This document shows positions 1-35,660 of a stretch of DNA of 35,660 nt, one piece after another. Made by a program: the position numbers and the translations under genes. Each line of letters opens with the position of its first letter. Position 1 is the first letter of the stretch. Source of the stretch: a virus; the IMG/VR virus record IMGVR_UViG_3300023220_000433, positions 1 to 35,660 of that record; one strand, 5' to 3'. Under the pieces are notes generated by a model, which was not told the origin of the DNA, did not search any database, and worked only from the letters and a program-made list of their open reading frames with translations.

Positions 1-96
1 ACTTGTTTACGACTTACGCCAATTGCTTTAGCCACCTCATCAGATTTTAAAGCGGATCGTCTAACGGCTATGCAATCCTCGAATCTTTTCTTTAGT
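1..96. repeat. terminal direct repeat, left copy
   Basis: These 96 bases are identical to the last 96 bases of the window. The simplest reading is that a circular or circularly permuted genome was assembled and the overlap was not trimmed. The repeat lies inside the coding sequence of an HTH regulator, so it is unlikely to be a biological terminal repeat with its own function. Confidence 0.95.
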
Positions 97-107
97 TCTT
101 TAGTCAT
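1..107 (-). CDS. XRE/Cro-like HTH regulator, 5' part (split by contig ends)
   Basis: Reading leftwards from an ATG at 105-107, this is the amino-terminal part of an 83-residue protein that continues at 35564-35420 once the ends are joined. Residues about 20-42 form a helix-turn-helix, with DEVAKAIGVSRKQVSHWE-like spacing typical of XRE-family repressors. The protein is small and close in size to Cro. It is transcribed away from the rightward early operon, the usual layout for a phage switch regulator. The GGTTACA motifs at 238-302 are candidate targets. Which lifestyle it controls is unknown, since no integrase is present. The fold is confident; the regulatory role is inference. Confidence 0.85.
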   Translation of the reverse strand, partial: MTKELKKRFEDCIAVRRSALKSDEVAKAIGVSRKQ

Positions 108-216: not shown

Positions 217-237
217 GTTGATATAATTGCCATAATA

Positions 238-302
238 AATGTAACCAATCAAGTTATTTATTTACTTGACAGGTTACAACTTGCACCTGTATGGTTACAT
301 TA
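238..302 (+). promoter_or_regulatory. early rightward promoter with operator-like repeats
   Basis: TTGACA at 266-271, an 18-base spacer and TATGGT at 290-295 form a sigma70-like promoter, with transcription expected to start near 302. Three copies of one motif sit here: AATGTAACC at 238-246 (inverted), GGTTACA at 272-278 inside the spacer, and GGTTACATTA at 293-302 over the -10 edge. The same motif recurs at the promoter region 31921-31966. Binding here would block RNA polymerase, so a repressor operator is the natural reading. The HTH regulator next door is the likely binder (inference). Confidence 0.6.
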
Positions 303-319
303 TGACAAGGACAAAAAGG

Positions 320-517
320 ATGAAAACAATGTGTGAAGTAATCTACATAGAAGCCTGGAAGAAAGAGCGGACTAAGCGTGCATTTGCAGAGTTTGAGAAG
401 ACAGCTGTAGGCAGAGTGTTTCTAAGGGCTGCAAAAGAATCTGGTGCATTCGCAGATTCCCCTGAAGTGCCAGAAGAACATAATGTGCTTGAATTTAAAC
501 TAAGGGAGAGAGGATAA
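320..517 (+). CDS. hypothetical small early protein
   Basis: This is the first gene of the rightward operon and encodes about 65 residues, rich in Lys, Arg and Glu. I chose the ATG at 320 because an AAGG ribosome site at 307-310 precedes it and the promoter's predicted start is near 302. The ATG at 329, preceded by AAAAGGA, is an equally good alternative. The stop overlaps the next gene's start (TAATG), implying translational coupling. No family is recognised. The ending LEFKLRERG looks globular, with no membrane segment. Confidence 0.6.
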   Translation: MKTMCEVIYIEAWKKERTKRAFAEFEKTAVGRVFLRAAKESGAFADSPEVPEEHNVLEFKLRERG

Positions 518-2491: not shown

Positions 2492-2599
2492 ATGACCGCA
2501 TTTATAATAGGTTTTGTGGCTGGCCTATCCACAAGGTTTGTCACGCTGAAGCAATCGGCTGAGTTTGTAGGTAAACTATTAAAGAGGATGAAGAGATGA
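2492..2599 (+). CDS. small hydrophobic/basic peptide (35 aa)
   Basis: A 35-residue peptide, MTAFIIGFVAGLSTRF followed by a basic helix ending KLLKRMKR. AGGGAGAG precedes the ATG, and the stop overlaps the next start as ATGA, which supports translation. The short hydrophobic stretch with a strongly basic tail suggests a membrane-associated peptide. Function unknown. Confidence 0.55.
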   Translation: MTAFIIGFVAGLSTRFVTLKQSAEFVGKLLKRMKR

Positions 2600-3507
2600 C
2601 TGAACAGAAGATAACTTTTACGTTGGATGAAATCAAAAAACATAATCTATGTGTAAGCGGATATAAAAAGCTTATCAAGAATCTTGGGGGTATGACGAAG
2701 TACGGAAAACACACACCCATAACTATTGACCAAATTTATGAAAGTAATGGATACGATGACACTTTATGGTGTTTGAGAACTACCCCTGAAGAAACCCATT
2801 ATCTATGGAGGCACTTTGCAGTCGATGCGGCCAGTGCTGTTAAGCATTTAATGAAAGATGAAAGAAGTTTAACAGCTTTAAAGGTGGCTAGATTATATGC
2901 ACAGGGCCGATCCTCAGATGCTGCTTGGACTGCTGCTAGTGATGCTGCTAGTGATGCTGCTAGGGATGCTGCTAGTGATGCTGCTTGGGATGCTGCTAGG
3001 GATGCTGCTTGGGATGCTGCTTGGGATGCTGCTAGTGATGCTGCTAGGGCTGCTGCTAGGGATGCTGCTAGTGATGCTGCTAGGGCTGCTGCTAGGGATG
3101 CTGCTAGTGATGCTGCTAGTGATGCTGCTAGGGATGCTGCTAGGGATGCTGCTTGGGATGCTGCTTGGACTGCTGCTAGGGATGCTGCTTGGGATGCTGC
3201 TTGGGATGCTGCTAGTGATGCTGCTAGGGCTGCTGCTAGTGATGCTGCTAGTGATGCTGCTAGTGATGCTGCTTGGGATGCTGCTAGGGATGCTGCTTGG
3301 GATGCTGCTTGGGCTGCTGCTAGGGCTGCTGCTAGGGATGCTGCTAGTGATGCTGCTTGGGATGCTGCTAGGGATGCTGCTTGGGATGCTGCTAGGGATG
3401 CGCAAATACGCCTATTATCTGATTATTGTAGGCTAGGTAAACGTCCATCAAGAAGTGAAGAGAGGTTGGTTGAATACATCAAAGAAGAGATGGCTAAAAA
3501 TGACTGA
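2596..3507 (+). CDS. DAAx-repeat alanine-rich protein
   Basis: A 303-residue protein in three parts. Residues 1-107 form an ordinary globular domain (TFTLDEIKKHNLCVSGYKK...). Residues 108-267 are 40 tandem tetrapeptides of the form DAAW, DAAS, DAAR, AAAR or TAAx. A short C-terminal domain (QIRLLSDYCRLGKRPSRSEE) follows. The repeat should form a long Ala-rich helix with Asp, Arg, Ser and Trp at a regular four-residue spacing, so a rod, spacer or self-associating fibre is plausible. Alanine-rich DAA repeats are known in uncharacterised phage proteins. The gene overlaps its neighbours by ATGA and by an AATGACTGA junction. Biological role unknown. Confidence 0.8.
   Translation: MTEQKITFTLDEIKKHNLCVSGYKKLIKNLGGMTKYGKHTPITIDQIYESNGYDDTLWCLRTTPEETHYLWRHFAVDAASAVKHLMKDERSLTALKVARLYAQGRSSDAAWTAASDAASDAARDAASDAAWDAARDAAWDAAWDAASDAARAAARDAASDAARAAARDAASDAASDAARDAARDAAWDAAWTAARDAAWDAAWDAASDAARAAASDAASDAASDAAWDAARDAAWDAAWAAARAAARDAASDAAWDAARDAAWDAARDAQIRLLSDYCRLGKRPSRSEERLVEYIKEEMAKND
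2917..3396 (+). repeat. 40 x 12-bp tandem repeat in coding sequence
   Basis: Forty consecutive 12-base units of consensus GATGCTGCTNNN. The last codon is TGG, AGT or AGG, and the first is GAT, occasionally GCT or ACT. The unit is a multiple of three, so copy-number changes keep the frame. This also explains why long open frames appear on both strands here. The units are imperfect, so assemblers may still have miscounted them. Confidence 0.97.
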
Positions 3508-4605: not shown

Positions 4606-4704
4606 ATGGGATTGATCTGGTTCTGGCGTTGGTTAACCGATATAGACTTTAGAACGATTCAAGAACGGCTCGCTCAAGCTGCTGAAACAAGGGAGGTTGT
4701 GTGA
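4606..4704 (+). CDS. possible small peptide (32 aa)
   Basis: A 32-residue reading frame, MGLIWFWRWLTDIDFRTIQERL..., with a Trp-rich amphipathic start. Its stop overlaps the next ATG (TGATG) in the manner of real neighbours. The ribosome site is weak. The open frame extends in the same phase back to the previous gene's stop at 4566 without another start. It could be a genuine small gene or the remnant of a longer one. Confidence 0.4.
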   Translation: MGLIWFWRWLTDIDFRTIQERLAQAAETREVV

Positions 4705-5482: not shown

Positions 5483-5816
5483 ACGGCAAAGGGCATCTAT
5501 CAGAGATTTATATACCGATGTTTTCGACATGGCAGAGCTAGATTTGCTTCAAAGGGATATGCCTGTGAGAATCCCACCCGAACCACAAGAGTTAAACTCT
5601 GAACAAAAGTTAAAACTATTAGCCGCTATAGCCAATGCGCAAGAAGCTTTAGACGATATAATGGAAAACTTACCTGAAGCCGTCGTAGCCATCGAAGCTT
5701 ACCAGAATATTTGTGACATCGTCGAAATGTGTATGGATGCTGGCCTGGCAGACGAGGATATGGAGAACGGATTAACTGGTAGGGAGGCTGAAGAATGGGA
5801 CTACAACGAGAAGTAA
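5469..5816 (+). CDS. hypothetical acidic protein, GTG start
   Basis: A 115-residue acidic helical protein. The GTG at 5469 is chosen because GGAGG lies nine bases upstream and the gene then overlaps the previous stop by 14 bases. It contains EQKLKLLAAIANAQEALDDI and ends GREAEEWDYNEK. Not recognised. The acidic helices could act in protein-protein contacts. Confidence 0.65.
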   Translation: MKRVERQRASIRDLYTDVFDMAELDLLQRDMPVRIPPEPQELNSEQKLKLLAAIANAQEALDDIMENLPEAVVAIEAYQNICDIVEMCMDAGLADEDMENGLTGREAEEWDYNEK

Positions 5817-7052: not shown

Positions 7053-7652
7053 ATGTATCCAAAAACAGAATGTGTAGGAAAAACCTACGGAAGACTAACG
7101 GTCTTATCTGAGTGTCCTAAAATATCAGGGGAACACAGAAAGGTGTTATGCCTATGCCGATGCGGAAATGAGGCTTTAGTACAAACCTCTAATCTTTTCT
7201 ACGGCTCAACAAAAAGTTGCGGCTGTTTACAAAGAGAAATTAGCACGACGCATGGAAAAAGAAAAACACCTGAATACAAGGCATGGGTTCACATGAAGGG
7301 GAGATGTCTCAACAAAAACGATCAAGACTATAAATATTATGGTGGTAGAGGGATTTCTATATGTGATGAATGGAAAGAATCGGTTGAGAACTTTATAGCG
7401 GATATGGGCAACAGACCATCATCTAATCATTCCATCGACAGAATTGACGTAAATGGAAACTACAACAAAGATAATTGTAAATGGTCTACTCGCCAAGAAC
7501 AGGCATTAAATAAACGTAATAACAGACTTGTCTCCTATAGAGATGAGCAACTTCCTTTAGCAGAGGCTTGTCGAAGAGCAGGTATAAACTACAGCACGGC
7601 ATTTAGTCGTTTATGGAGAGGAAAAGATTGGGCAGGCAAAGCCGCTTTATAA
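7053..7652 (+). CDS. homing-endonuclease-like protein, copy 2
   Basis: A 199-residue paralog of the gene at 1877-2479, sharing more than half of its residues by eye. It has the same cysteine stretch (CLCRCGN ... KSCGC), the same core (YGGRGISIC, SIDRIDVNGNYNKDNCKW) and the same C-terminal helices (LPLAEACRRAGINYSTAFSRL). The DNA is near-identical around the SIDRIDVNG codons. AAAAGGAGAA precedes the ATG. Together the two copies bracket about 4.6 kb of accessory genes, which they may have helped to move or retain (inference). It is followed by about 90 bp with no gene I can support. Confidence 0.75.
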   Translation: MYPKTECVGKTYGRLTVLSECPKISGEHRKVLCLCRCGNEALVQTSNLFYGSTKSCGCLQREISTTHGKRKTPEYKAWVHMKGRCLNKNDQDYKYYGGRGISICDEWKESVENFIADMGNRPSSNHSIDRIDVNGNYNKDNCKWSTRQEQALNKRNNRLVSYRDEQLPLAEACRRAGINYSTAFSRLWRGKDWAGKAAL

Positions 7653-8393: not shown

Positions 8394-8538
8394 GTTTATG
8401 CCCAGCGGCGAAAATTCGCAGGAATAAGGCAGGGCCTTCTCTTTAAATAGGGATGGCACTTACAACCCCTAATCAGTGGGGGCTTGCCGAATATATTGGA
8501 CGTTGGGCGCCTTATTAAACAACAAAAAGGAAAAGCAA

Positions 8539-8727
8539 ATGGAATTCATAGAAGACATAATTCAAAGCGAAGTGCCGATAGTGCTATTCCTTAAAAACGG
8601 AATAAAGCTAAATGGTCTTATTACTGAACAGAATGAGGCATACCTGCTCTTAAGCGGACAAGGGACTATTCAGCTAGTCTTTATGGGGGCTATAGCTACA
8701 ATTATGCCGGTTCCTATACGAAACTAG
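8539..8727 (+). CDS. Hfq-like Sm-fold RNA-binding protein
   Basis: A 62-residue protein that lines up with the Hfq core with a one-residue insertion. The Sm1-like part is VPIVLFLKNGIKLNGLI (residues 12-28; Hfq VPVSIYLVNGIKLQGQI) and the Sm2-like part is QLVFMGAIATIMP (45-57; Hfq MVYKHAISTVVP). Distal-face residues are largely kept (Phe17 for Tyr25, Ile22, Lys23), but the proximal-face Lys-His pair is Met49-Gly50, and there is no C-terminal tail. It may bind A-rich RNA or mix into host Hfq rings (inference). AAAAAGGA precedes the ATG. It is the last plus-strand gene of the block, and its TAG lies in the CTAG shared with the convergent spanin gene. Confidence 0.8.
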   Translation: MEFIEDIIQSEVPIVLFLKNGIKLNGLITEQNEAYLLLSGQGTIQLVFMGAIATIMPVPIRN

Positions 8728-9225: not shown

Positions 9226-9651
9226 CTATTTCTCCTTTAGTTCAAAATGGGCAAAATCCAGAAAGGTCTGGTCAGCACTGTTGCCATCACCATCCCAATC
9301 ACCGCCCCATCTTAACTGTACACCCTCTAAAGAAGCCGCTGCAAACATTAATCCTGCCAAGATATGAAATCGTATGGGATCATTCCATACATTAATCCCA
9401 TTAACCCTTGAAGGATAAGGCAAAATATCAACAGCTTCAGACATACCCTTTTGATTCGCCAAATGCTTACTTTGCAGCGTTTTAGACTTTCCATCATGAA
9501 ATAACTGCTTTTGACGCTCATAAGACCTCACCCCTTCAAGGATGCTAAAGTCCATAACGCCAAAGGATAAAGCCCTTTTACATATGCTTACAAGGCGCTT
9601 GTCGCAAGTATTAAGTCTCTCGGAAGAATTCCCTGAGAAAAAGAAGGTCAT
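9226..9651 (-). CDS. endolysin, M15-type L-alanyl-D-glutamate peptidase
   Basis: A 141-residue peptidase of the M15/VanY type. It has GVRSYERQKQLF (about 40-51), then SKH (His63), AVDILPYP (Asp75), and RWGGDWDGDG followed by FAHFEL (His135). His63, Asp75 and His135 are the expected zinc ligands. The spacing from His63 to Asp75 is longer than the usual H-x6-D. The enzyme would cut the peptide stem of peptidoglycan. There is no signal peptide, so it needs the holin. Its start overlaps the previous gene's stop (ATGA) and its last codons provide the holin ribosome site. Confidence 0.85.
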   Translation of the reverse strand: MTFFFSGNSSERLNTCDKRLVSICKRALSFGVMDFSILEGVRSYERQKQLFHDGKSKTLQSKHLANQKGMSEAVDILPYPSRVNGINVWNDPIRFHILAGLMFAAASLEGVQLRWGGDWDGDGNSADQTFLDFAHFELKEK

Positions 9652-30009: not shown

Positions 30010-30411
30010 TTAAACTCTTATGTTCAATTGATATTCGTGATCGGAATAACAAGCCCAGTCAGGCCGGTTATTATCCTTCAAATAAGCGCTGATTTTCTTC
30101 CTGTTAGGCTCAACCTTCATCCTTAGGAACTCTTCAGGTATCTTATCCTCATCAGGAATGACTACGCTAGGGGCTTTGTCGCTTAAATAAACCATTCTGC
30201 CTTCAAACCTTATAGGCGTAATGTCACCATCCCTTTGGATTCTCTCCTGCATAATGCGAAAGATTTCATCCCTGACATGGCCCCTCATCTTTTCCGCCGT
30301 CTTTTTACCCATGGCCATTTTCTCAATAGCTGCCTTCATATCATCTATGATGCAATCCATCTCCGCCATGCCATTATAAAGATCTCTTACTAGCCGCGTT
30401 TCTTCATCCAT
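30010..30411 (-). CDS. Gp157-like siphovirus-family protein
   Basis: A 133-residue protein resembling the Siphovirus Gp157 family. It has a helical, coiled-coil first half (RLVRDLYNGMAEMDCIIDDM...KKTAEKMRGHVRDEIF), then a beta part (PIRFEGRMVYLSDKAPSVVIPDEDKIPEEF) and a C-terminal KKISAYLKDN. The family is linked to phage resistance or recombination functions, but the mechanism is unclear. I chose the ATG at 30411 for its GGGGAAAGG site; it overlaps the NinB-like stop by eight bases. Confidence 0.7.
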   Translation of the reverse strand: MDEETRLVRDLYNGMAEMDCIIDDMKAAIEKMAMGKKTAEKMRGHVRDEIFRIMQERIQRDGDITPIRFEGRMVYLSDKAPSVVIPDEDKIPEEFLRMKVEPNRKKISAYLKDNNRPDWACYSDHEYQLNIRV

Positions 30412-30802
30412 TACCTTTCCCCATTGCATACCCATAGTCATCTGGTATGCGTATTTTTATGTCAAGTTGAACGGCCAAAGCTTGTACTGCCTCAAGGAAC
30501 TCTGTCATTTTCTGCACGCCCAATCTCTTAGTGCTTTTAGGCTCGATTATAAGGTTGCCCGATATTATCTCCTTGGTCACACCAAGGTGACGAATCTTCA
30601 TCTCTCTGTGCAAGCTCTCTGGGGTTGTTCCTGTGCCAGAGGTAATGTCATTGTACCACATCCACATAGTTCTATTCTGAGCCGTGGTGCGGTTCTTAAT
30701 ATATTCCTTAACCTCCACACATATAGTCCCATCATGAGGTAGGCTCTTAATGTATTCTAAGCAGTTAGACTTTCTTTCCTGGTCTATGATGATGTAGAGC
30801 AC
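30404..30802 (-). CDS. ninB: NinB/Orf-family recombination protein, GTG start
   Basis: A 132-residue protein with the NinB signature: NRTTAQNRTMWMWYNDI (about 37-53), PESLHREMKIRHLG, PKSTKRLGVQKMTEFLEAVQALA (about 88-110), then IPDDYGYA. Lambda NinB (Orf) binds SSB and single-stranded DNA and helps recombinase loading. Here it follows an SSB-like gene, which fits that job. The GTG start overlaps the previous stop (TAGTG) and follows AGGT. No separate recombinase gene is visible. Confidence 0.8.
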   Translation of the reverse strand: MLYIIIDQERKSNCLEYIKSLPHDGTICVEVKEYIKNRTTAQNRTMWMWYNDITSGTGTTPESLHREMKIRHLGVTKEIISGNLIIEPKSTKRLGVQKMTEFLEAVQALAVQLDIKIRIPDDYGYAMGKGNG

Positions 30803-31577: not shown

Positions 31578-31892
31578 TTACTCTCCGTAGGTATCGGTGG
31601 TTAATCTTTCAGTTGTCCAAAGCTTACTTTCAAAGTTGTAAGTGACTTTTTCTAAAGGTGTGAAGTAACGCCTGTCTTCATCTTTATTGAATTCTACTAT
31701 TTCTATAACACAATCCTGGTTGACTTCATGCTCAACAGAAGCTTCACACGACAAGGCTTTAGCAAGCTCCCTGGCTTCCGTCACTTCTTCAATACAAGCA
31801 CTTTCGAACTCTTCACCATTATCATCTAAAACTCTATGGCCTAACTCAGTCATTTCAGTAGGTTCTTTTTCTTGTCTTGTATCTTCAATCAT
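31578..31892 (-). CDS. acidic leader protein of the leftward unit
   Basis: A 104-residue, strongly acidic protein (about a quarter Glu or Asp): IEDTRQEKEPTEMTELGHRV, ESACIEEVTEARELAKALS, YNFESKLWTTERLTTDTYGE. It is the first gene after the promoter at 31922-31950, with GGAGGG before the ATG. Early position and high negative charge recall anti-defence or DNA-mimic proteins, but no homology supports that. Function unknown. Confidence 0.6.
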   Translation of the reverse strand: MIEDTRQEKEPTEMTELGHRVLDDNGEEFESACIEEVTEARELAKALSCEASVEHEVNQDCVIEIVEFNKDEDRRYFTPLEKVTYNFESKLWTTERLTTDTYGE

Positions 31893-31920: not shown

Positions 31921-31966
31921 TAATGTAACCTGGTAAGTTGCATATGTCAACACCAAAAAGGTTACA
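31921..31966 (-). promoter_or_regulatory. leftward promoter with operator-like repeats
   Basis: On the minus strand, TTGACA (31945-31950), a 17-base spacer and TACATT (31922-31927) form a good promoter for the leftward unit. GGTTACATTA, in the form TAATGTAACC at 31921-31930, covers the -10 element, and a second GGTTACA lies at 31960-31966 just before the plus-strand RuvC-like gene. The same motif decorates the early promoter at 238-302. One regulator probably controls both sites. AAAAGG within this region also serves as ribosome site for the RuvC-like gene. Confidence 0.6.
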
Positions 31967-31968
31967 AA

Positions 31969-32424
31969 ATGAAAAAGAATGTTGTTGTAGGAATTGACCC
32001 CGCCACCCTATGTGGCTTTTGTGTTTTAGAAATGGATGGAAGCATAGCAGAAGTCTTTGAAATGAATCTAGCTAATGAATGTAAAGCCAAGCGTGCGCAT
32101 GAGCTCATTAAAATAATCCGCATATTAAATGACAACTATAAAATTGAAATGATCTGTTTTGAAAGCGTATTTGGTCATAGCCGCCATGCCATTAAAATTC
32201 TTGAAAGGCTGGCAGGGGTTATTATAGCTGTATCGGAAATCTATTGCCTACCTTATTGCGAGGTTCCTGTCACCAAGCTTAAACTTTATGCCACAGGTAC
32301 AGGGAAGGCCAGCAAACAACAAATGATAGATGAAGCCAAAAAGGTTACGGGAAGAGAGGCTTTTACAGATAATGAAGCGGATGCATATTTCATAGCTCGT
32401 TATGGCCTAGCTCAAACTACTTGA
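31969..32424 (+). CDS. RuvC-like Holliday-junction resolvase
   Basis: A 151-residue RNase H-fold nuclease of the RuvC type: VVVGIDPATLCGF (Asp10), CFESVFG (Glu65), and TDNEADAYFIARYG (Asp134, Asp138). These acidic residues should bind Mg2+ and cut branched DNA, as needed before headful packaging. It is the only plus-strand gene in a long minus-strand region, convergent with the replication block and divergent from the leftward unit. AAAAGG is seven bases before the ATG. Confidence 0.85.
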   Translation: MKKNVVVGIDPATLCGFCVLEMDGSIAEVFEMNLANECKAKRAHELIKIIRILNDNYKIEMICFESVFGHSRHAIKILERLAGVIIAVSEIYCLPYCEVPVTKLKLYATGTGKASKQQMIDEAKKVTGREAFTDNEADAYFIARYGLAQTT

Positions 32425-33458: not shown

Positions 33459-33863
33459 TCATGTTCTCGCTCCCTGTAAGGCATTTTTCATCTCGGTTTT
33501 TCCCACTTGCCAGAAATGGCAAAACTTCATGGCTTTTTTTCTCAAATCAACAACAGTGGGTTGGGCTGACTCATTGTCGCGCCAATATTTAGCTGTTTTT
33601 TGTACAGCCCATAAGGGGAATTCCTCTAAACTGTCGCTGTAAGAATAAATCTTTGCACTTCTCTCTGAGGGCTCCAAGGGAAGTCCGAAATTATAACTGG
33701 AAAGCAATGCTATGATTGTTGTCTCTATTGCCTTCGCATCAGTGGAGGGCTTTAAAACCTCCTCAAAAATAGGCAACAATTCAGCCATATTCTGCCTATC
33801 CTCATCAGTTGGACTGAAGCTTGGTTGTTGAAATCCAACACTAGCCGAACGGCTTAAAGCCAT
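33459..33863 (-). CDS. replication-block protein (134 aa)
   Basis: A 134-residue helical protein: AELLPIFEEVLKPS, TIIALLSSYNFGLPL, and DSLEEFPLWAVQKTAKYWRDNESAQPTVVDLRKKA (about 79-113). The 'FP.WAV..A...W......PT...LR' helix pair also occurs in the gene at 32499-33215, suggesting a shared module. I chose the ATG at 33863 because a longer frame would overlap the initiator-like gene by over 200 bases. Possibly helps load host helicase; unproven. Confidence 0.55.
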   Translation of the reverse strand: MALSRSASVGFQQPSFSPTDEDRQNMAELLPIFEEVLKPSTDAKAIETTIIALLSSYNFGLPLEPSERSAKIYSYSDSLEEFPLWAVQKTAKYWRDNESAQPTVVDLRKKAMKFCHFWQVGKTEMKNALQGART

Positions 33864-34908
33864 CACCACGTCGAAAATCTGATACTTGACGGATAGTTTC
33901 ATCAAGGCTCGGACGTGACTTCCCACTTCCTCCATGTTGCTGAGTGTTATCTCGTGAATGCCAATTTTGGAAAGAGCGGTACCACCCGACTCTTGCATCT
34001 GGTTTTGAGGTGAAGTGGTTGTAGAAACCTGTAAGCATTTGTCGAGTGTTTTCATCGTCTGTTCCTTTGTTGGTTGAGTAGTCGTAGCATTTCTGAGCTT
34101 CTTCGCTCATGAAAGTGATGTATCCGTAATCGTCTGCCGTTATCCAATCTTCTGGCATGACATATTTTTTAGGTTTGGTTTTTTTAGGGGAAGGGACAAC
34201 GACGTTAGTCGATAAATCCTCAATCAACACATCCTCATTCAATAAAGGGGATTCCTCATTCCTTAAGAGGGAATCAGGGGGATAAGAAGCGTTTTCCTTA
34301 ACACAAGCTTGATCCAAGCTTAAGTCAAGCATGACCCGTCCTTGATCCAAGCTTAAGTCATGGTTGACTTTCCTGTTTCCTTTCAACACGTTACAGCCAC
34401 GGCATAAAACTTGCAAATTGTCTTCTGTGCTGTTCCCACCCTTAGAAACAGGTTCTATATGATCAATGTGTAGATCGTCTTGTGAACCGCAGTAATTGCA
34501 TTCCCTTCCATCCCTATCAAAAATATTGGACCTAATCTTTTCATTTAACGGGAAATATCCATCACAAACACTATTTGTATATTCAGGTGGAGATGGGAAT
34601 ATGCTGGCAACCTCTTTATGGTGAGGATTCTGATGCTTCGCAAAGTTTGATATTTGGATATATTTTTTGTCAACTACAGAATAAATAAGAATAAATTCCC
34701 TTTCCCGTAAACATTCCAATAAATCTATTACATCACAATCATCATAGACAAGAACTTGAGCTTTAATTTTCCTGGGCCTGTACTCTATTCTGCCTTCGCG
34801 GTCTGCAATGCACCACAATCCTATAAATAAAAGCCTGCCAAGAGGATCTATTTCTGCTAAAAGATCGTTATCAAAAAAAGACGGCTTAATGTTTCTCGCT
34901 CGTGCCAT
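33841..34908 (-). CDS. replication-initiator-like protein with inserted HNH module
   Basis: A 355-residue protein in three parts. Residues 1-105 match phage replication initiators (ARARNIKPSFFDNDLLAEID, GRLLFIGLWCIADREGRIEYRPRKIKAQV, winged-helix-like). Residues about 122-182 are a complete HNH nuclease: C137xxC140, HIDHIEP with His150, NLQVLC, C169xxC172 and NVLKGNRK. The rest has a DnaT/DnaD-like C-terminus (FYNHFTSKPDARVGWYRSFQNWHSR). It would bind the origin and recruit the host helicase. The nuclease may nick or may be a domesticated homing insert. AGGAGC precedes the ATG. Confidence 0.75.
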   Translation of the reverse strand: MARARNIKPSFFDNDLLAEIDPLGRLLFIGLWCIADREGRIEYRPRKIKAQVLVYDDCDVIDLLECLREREFILIYSVVDKKYIQISNFAKHQNPHHKEVASIFPSPPEYTNSVCDGYFPLNEKIRSNIFDRDGRECNYCGSQDDLHIDHIEPVSKGGNSTEDNLQVLCRGCNVLKGNRKVNHDLSLDQGRVMLDLSLDQACVKENASYPPDSLLRNEESPLLNEDVLIEDLSTNVVVPSPKKTKPKKYVMPEDWITADDYGYITFMSEEAQKCYDYSTNKGTDDENTRQMLTGFYNHFTSKPDARVGWYRSFQNWHSRDNTQQHGGSGKSRPSLDETIRQVSDFRRGDGFKPFG

Positions 34909-35419: not shown

Positions 35420-35660
35420 TCAACTTCCCTTGTCATTCGCCTTGTTCCATGAATCTATATATTGATCTTTGGTCAACTTATCCACAACGTCACAATACGT
35501 TTTCATTCTATTTAGCGACCTGTCTAGGCTTTCCTGTACGAGGTTGCTATTCTCCCAATGAGAGACTTGTTTACGACTTACGCCAATTGCTTTAGCCACC
35601 TCATCAGATTTTAAAGCGGATCGTCTAACGGCTATGCAATCCTCGAATCTTTTCTTTAGT
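35420..35660 (-). CDS. XRE/Cro-like HTH regulator, 3' part (split by contig ends)
   Basis: The carboxy-terminal part of the 83-residue regulator whose start is at 107. Bases 35565-35660 repeat positions 1-96, so only 35420-35564 adds new codons: the end of the helix-turn-helix (HWENSNLVQESLDRSLN) and a C-terminal helix (MKTYCDVVDKLTKDQYIDSW). The short length, with no protease or sensor domain, suggests a Cro-like or simple repressor. It heads the leftward replication operon. Confidence 0.85.
   Translation of the reverse strand, partial: LKKRFEDCIAVRRSALKSDEVAKAIGVSRKQVSHWENSNLVQESLDRSLNRMKTYCDVVDKLTKDQYIDSWNKANDKGS
35565..35660. repeat. terminal direct repeat, right copy
   Basis: Identical to positions 1-96. 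Removing one copy gives a circle of 35,564 bp in which the HTH regulator gene is intact. Confidence 0.95.

Follow-up and report, generated by a model that had tools for sequence, protein, structure and literature searches.

Do two distant promoters in an uncultivated phage lineage answer to one regulator, and if so, to which? The question arises in a 35,660-nt stretch of DNA from a bacterial virus (IMG/VR record IMGVR_UViG_3300023220_000433; the whole stretch is called the window here). A first-pass annotation had reported five copies of the word GGTTACA, extended to GGTTACA(TTA), three of them at a rightward promoter and two at a leftward promoter, overlapping the -10 element of both, and had proposed a single regulator, most simply a small HTH protein encoded across the contig ends. 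We conclude that the five sites are probably the operators of a single dimeric DNA-binding protein, for which the 83-aa HTH protein encoded by the phage itself is the likeliest candidate and which would turn down early transcription in both directions; this reading is drawn from sequence, and the points that speak for and against it are given below as they arise.

Five sites with one dyad at two promoters

A word search of the whole window finds GGTTACA three times at the rightward promoter and twice at the leftward one, as had been described, and fixes the exact coordinates (Table 1); one copy lies over the -10 element of each promoter. The proposed TTA extension fits two of the five copies, since the exact 10-mer GGTTACATTA occurs at only two places in the whole window, 293-302 and 31921-31930; the 7-mer itself is present in all five.

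Table 1. Positions of the operators, motif copies, promoters and genes discussed in the text.
Feature	Position	Strand	Remarks
Operator A	240..258	-	core 240-254, centre 249; within weak candidate leftward promoter of HTH gene
Operator B	260..278	+	core 264-278, centre 269; covers rightward -35 (266-271)
Operator C	281..299	+	core 285-299, centre 290; covers rightward -10 (290-295)
Operator D	31924..31942	-	core 31924-31938, centre 31933; overlaps leftward -10
Operator E	31948..31966	+	core 31952-31966, centre 31957; overlaps leftward -35; just before RuvC-like start codon
GGTTACA at rightward promoter	240-246; 272-278; 293-299	-; +; +	word search, whole window
GGTTACA at leftward promoter	31924-31930; 31960-31966	-; +	word search, whole window
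Rightward promoter	266..295	+	TTGACA 266-271, 18 bp, TATGGT 290-295
Leftward promoter	31922..31950	-	TTGACA 31950-31945, 17 bp, TACATT 31927-31922
Weak candidate leftward promoter of HTH gene	232..260	-	TAAATA-17-TATTAT, 8/12
Alternative HTH-gene promoter	252-223	-	TTGATT-18-AATTAT
First gene, rightward operon	329..517	+	small protein; start 329 inferred from preceding AAAAAGG
First gene, leftward operon	31578..31892	-	104 aa; then phrog_862, NinB and Gam-like genes
RuvC-like resolvase gene	31969..32424	+	divergent from leftward operon
Replication-initiation-type protein with HNH domain	33841..34908	-	same direction as HTH gene
HTH gene, main part	35420..35659	-	right end; closed across ends, 83 aa
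HTH gene, first part	1..107	-	start codon 107-105

The word is only part of the unit, which is longer and a dyad, a point that the first-pass annotation had overlooked. When inverted and direct readings of the five sites were compared at offsets of 0-11, the best was the inverted one at offset 0, with a span of 19 bp and 19 of 35 matches; no direct reading exceeded 14 of 35. The full dyad reads TGTAAC-N7-GTTACA and contains a 15-bp core, ACN6GGTTACA; because AC-N7-GT is symmetrical, we describe the unit as a dyad with one well-kept, strong half (GGTTACA) and one loose, weak half. Compared with their own reverse complements, the five 19-mers match at 4, 5, 4, 6 and 3 of 9 positions (genome mean 2.25). 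The centres of A, B and C are 20 and 21 bp apart and those of D and E 24 bp apart. The sites, their dyad and spacing and their overlap with the promoters are read directly from the DNA, as are their rarity and the HTH gene that lies beside them.

The sites are not equally good. In a leave-one-out matrix scan of 71,128 sequence windows, A, B and D each rank best and C second; E, the weakest of the five, ranks 45th, and it adjoins a ribosome-binding-site-like AAAAAGG before the RuvC-like start codon. This rank and this neighbour, and the D-E spacing of 24 bp versus 20 and 21 bp among A, B and C, count against the single-protein reading.

Rarity of the operator

A motif common throughout the genome would speak against the proposed link, as the first-pass annotation itself had pointed out. 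The 7-mer goes halfway towards that: the window holds 11 copies against 3.08 expected (none of 100 shuffles reaches 11), and six of them lie outside the two promoters, so that GGTTACA alone is not unique, but five of the 11 fall within 296 bp of intergenic DNA (binomial P 1.8e-8). The 15-bp core behaves otherwise, with exactly five copies, all at the two promoters, where 0.13 are expected and no shuffle out of 100 reaches five. With up to one mismatch the core has 10 copies where 5.76 are expected, so the exact cores do not trail off into many weaker sites.

That a short AT-rich word merely recurs near promoters by chance would fit the six further copies of the 7-mer and the near-expected number of one-mismatch cores. 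It has practically no prospect of being right in view of the excess of exact cores, and of two simulations: none of 400 order-3 Markov genomes contained two copies of ACN6GGTTACA within 60 bp of each other, and, among 3000 pairs of random stretches matched in size, just two shared any 7-mer three plus two times. Among 21 listed copies of GTTACA, moreover, an AC stands seven bases before all five promoter copies and none of the 16 others (Fisher 4.9e-5, an optimistic value because the AC rule was found on the same data), and this rule splits the promoter copies from all the rest. Chance is already refuted for the set of five; site E taken alone could still be a chance match. The five sites very probably serve one binding protein, E the least surely.

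Promoters and operons under the sites

TTGACA occurs 11 times in the genome, and only the copies in the two promoters of Table 1 have a -10 element of at least 4/6 at a distance of 16-18 bp. The shared dyad, its regular spacing and its placement over -35 and -10 elements argue strongly for one regulator of both promoters, in agreement with the original proposal. The promoter of the HTH gene, into which operator A would fall, scores 8/12; its weakness is a point against the reading we favour.

Downstream of the rightward promoter, the first gene has no Pfam or PHROG match. Three adjacent ORFs (517-810, 810-1262 and 1262-1546, all +) match phrog_1273, of unknown function, and the ORF at 2596-3507 (+), a long run of short Ala/Asp/Arg/Trp/Ser repeats, matches phrog_18326. 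Two similar HNH-type genes lie in the same operon, at 1877-2479 and 7053-7652 (+); the first matches PHROG HNH families, and the second has a segment in common with HNH genes of staphylococcal phages (about 67-69% DNA identity). At the end of the operon is an Hfq-like protein (8476-8727, +; Pfam Hfq 40.2 bits, cut-off 27), with no PHROG match at E 0.01; a literature search on phage-encoded Hfq-like proteins led to a mycobacteriophage paper. On the other side, genes for Gam-like end protection, NinB and the RuvC-like resolvase stand together as a recombination module (30010-30802, -, and 31969-32424, +).

The HTH gene and its product

The gene proposed to run across the contig ends is real: bases 1-96 of the window repeat the last 96, giving a circle of 35,564 bases, and the ORF closed across this 96-bp overlap encodes 83 aa. 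Read from the complement of 107..1 on to 35420, it begins about 130 bp from the triple operator. Between the candidate promoter and the start codon lies a leader of about 118 bases (108-226, -) with an 8-base inverted repeat, GGCTGGTG/CACCAGCC; the pairing of its arms at 132-216 was rejected as an RNA structure, being no more stable than in shuffles (z -1.05).

A profile search of the genome gives this protein as its single HTH_3 match. Three features of it weigh against the main reading. Its score against Pfam HTH_3 (Cro/CI-type) is 21.3 bits, below the cut-off of 23. A single-sequence model predicts four helices, of which the second and third are arranged like an HTH and the last is long, with a pLDDT of 71.6 that is too weak for fold claims, and the best solved-structure match is insignificant (Foldseek E 0.38, the lambda CII structure 1zs4). 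Finally, searches for homologues returned none in a close-relative scan of IMG/VR, four weak records by tblastn in phages (best E 6e-3), nine weak records in plasmids, none confirmed in GTDB genomes, none in eight sister records, none among 2441 ORFs of 43 tandem-motif loci, and, for the ORFs of loci L003-L131, no phmmer match at E <= 1 and four blastp hits (best E 0.13). The pairing of operator and regulator is therefore not comparable across true orthologues.

Lambda CII is the best lead for the protein in both sequence and fold, and it recurs: Pfam Phage_CII scores 15.7 bits (cut-off 21.3; E 0.018), a PHROG CII-like family gives E 0.0017, and 1zs4 gives E 0.27 by phmmer besides the Foldseek match. 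These leads would suit a CII-like activator that switches the two promoters on, but each either misses its cut-off or lacks significance. CII binds direct repeats around the -35 element; the sites in the window read better as inverted repeats, cover the -10 elements, where a bound activator would be an obstacle, and belong to two promoters that both have a perfect TTGACA. We consider an activator of this kind highly improbable.

Gene order and the lysogeny genes

The HTH gene opens a run of leftward genes that extends to the replication-initiation-type protein, in which a replication-initiation-type N-terminus is joined to an HNH domain, and whose gene overlaps an ORF at 33459-34055. We fetched 55 loci with a protein of this type and listed the upstream genes for eight; at three of the eight (L083, L090 and L092), by eye, a small HTH gene stands opposite a longer, repressor-like gene and is followed by the replication gene. 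This is the lambdoid order, with the longer gene in the place of cI and the small one in that of cro or cII, and by it the HTH gene of the window stands in the cro/cII place; the cI place is occupied by the rightward operon, whose first gene is the one without a family match.

Could the HTH protein instead keep both lytic promoters shut as the lysogeny repressor, CI-like or similar to N15 CB, of a temperate phage that is extrachromosomal or integrates by unrecognised means? In lambda, OR2 abuts PRM, and operator B likewise abuts the candidate leftward -35 element. The operator count, three plus two, also equals that of N15 and phiKO2 in excerpts of PMC4997575. Against this, profile searches of the genome found no tyrosine integrase (PF00589), serine recombinase (PF00239) or ParA-type ATPase (PF13614), and no S24-type C-terminal domain or peptidase was found in the genome. 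The protein has 83 aa, whereas CB of N15/phiKO2 is a protein of about 37 kDa, described in those excerpts as being without S24-type cleavage features, and Cro is about 8 kDa (PMC4997575). The position of the HTH gene, upstream of the replication initiator and in the same direction, is also the one that a cro/cII-type gene takes in three of the eight loci, beside a separate, longer repressor gene. We regard a lysogeny repressor as unlikely; since the searches gave neither integrase nor S24 domain nor ParA, the protein is more likely a Cro-like brake on early transcription than part of a lysogeny switch. Nor does a second HTH regulator face the first across the triple operator as in a CI/Cro pair: the right-hand gene lacks a Pfam or PHROG match, and the genome has a single HTH_3 match. 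We do not file the system as a lambdoid switch, since searches for a second regulator and for integration genes found neither.

Sister phages and other contigs

Relatives of the major capsid protein were found at eight loci in IMG/VR (42-76% identity); there were no confirmed relatives of the terminase there, and none of the RuvC-like protein. By tblastn, these eight sisters have virion genes in common with the window and hardly share its early region. A comparable early region was sought in the three long records among the eight, G001, G002 and G008. In G002, a leftward 87-aa HTH-type ORF (HTH_3 13.7 bits, under the cut-off) faces a rightward small-gene operon, and between them are TAGCTATAGGCTA at 4652 and TAGCTATAGGCTT at 4696, the only two copies of this repeat in 43,124 bp with up to two mismatches; the second lies inside a TTGACA-18-TATAAT promoter. 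G008 has a leftward 59-aa HTH protein (27.1 bits, over the Pfam cut-off), a rightward small-gene operon, TTGACA at 9267, and ATTCGCCA twice in inverted order, again the only two copies in its 39,338 bases; this case is weak because 1.09 copies are expected. HTH genes are also seen in G001, without this layout, and its GGTTACA copies at 400-775 were rejected as operators, being inside a repetitive coding gene.

Neither G002 nor G008 has a second cluster of its own repeat, so the link between two promoters is seen only in the window; this, and the missing layout in G001, count against the main reading. On the other side, the 83-aa protein is the sole HTH_3 match, its start adjoins the triple site, and two sisters have a similar layout. 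By these sequence features the small HTH protein put forward by the first-pass annotation holds up as the best candidate for the regulator.

Among other phage contigs, the inverted-pair pattern was found in 12 stretches and the tandem pattern in 43, counts to which we attach no weight. Several of these stretches are not operators, being repeats inside long genes (L017, L018, L019 and others), and several were set aside as iteron-like arrays: L028 (11100-11500), L040 (12847), L044 (5895) and L041 (3034) hold 8-14 copies of TGTAACC/GGTTACA each. Full TGTAACC-N5-GGTTACA palindromes occur in L024 at two places (5643-5682 and 9339-9400), in L021 (4341-4379) and in L025 (3462-3502), with more copies 20-22 bp away.

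No relative of the window's HTH protein was found in L021, L024 or L025, and their perfect palindromes favour another binder, for example a host regulator of the MqsA kind that the phage would use to sense its host. The inner dyad of the window's sites, ACYT-N3-WGGT (four of five sites), is close to the palindrome of the XRE antitoxin MqsA, given as ACCT-N3-AGGT in excerpts of PMC5422877. The exact palindrome is nevertheless present in none of the five sites, the conserved outer TACA lies outside the MqsA motif, and no toxin pair was recognised beside the HTH gene. The phage's own HTH gene lies beside the triple site, and the sisters pair other HTH genes with other repeats. Binding by such another protein strikes us as quite unlikely. 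In the open-access papers searched, GGTTACA was not found together with phage and operator, nor was Cro-type control found in lytic phages.

Proposed mechanism

For the 83-aa HTH protein as the common regulator, we infer binding, repression rather than activation, autoregulation and timing as follows. A dimer of the protein would bind ACN6GGTTACA. The protein would accumulate early and then fill the operators. With B and C occupied, RNA polymerase would be blocked at the rightward early promoter; occupation of A would restrain the leftward transcript of the HTH gene itself, and occupation of D and E would shut the leftward promoter before the recombination genes. Once enough of the protein was present, early transcription would go down both to the right and to the left, as with Cro in lambda.

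A wider reading is possible, and we offer it tentatively: a phage without recognisable lysogeny genes may keep a 3+2 circuit of the lambda/N15 type in which one small Cro-like protein acts as a timer and shuts off early transcription both ways; in sisters that share virion genes, the regulator may change along with its operators, as though the two were swapped as a cassette, which would yield immunity-like specificity classes without lysogeny. For an uncultivated phage lineage, the analysis provides a concrete candidate regulator and operator set that short DNA and a single 83-aa protein suffice to test. Should the HTH protein be the sole regulator, this would be a natural lambda-type operator array without a CI/Cro pair, useful for studying the roles of such arrays outside the lysis-lysogeny choice.

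Comparison with known systems

The 3+2 operator plan is that of the lambdoid phages, and closest to that of N15/phiKO2. In OR and OL of lambda, tandem dyads about two helical turns apart lie over the -35 and -10 elements of divergent and distant early promoters. The window agrees in repeating one type of dyad at two separate early promoters, in tandem at intervals of about two helical turns and over -35 and -10 elements, with the triple operator intergenic and beside an HTH regulator gene. By this comparison it would work like an OR/OL system; it differs in the single small regulator, the different dyad and a genome in which no lysogeny genes were found. Lambda differs in having two regulators and six operators, of 17 bp each in excerpts of PMC4997575; the window has five operators, one recognisable regulator, and neither integrase nor S24 domain that could be found.

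The likeness to immB of N15/phiKO2, as far as excerpts of PMC4997575 describe it, lies in the three operators of the same type that occupy the intergenic region next to a regulator gene, with two more at a promoter far away; the CB repressor binds all five (three OR and two OL), and Cro of phiKO2 binds OR3 only. The differences are of three kinds. There, CB and Cro flank OR, whereas the window has one 83-aa HTH protein; the operators there are 16 bp long, of the form T-A-N10-T-A, and those in the window are 19-bp dyads with AC-N7-GTTACA; and the distant pair, which in N15/phiKO2 stands before the replication gene, stands in the window before the recombination genes.
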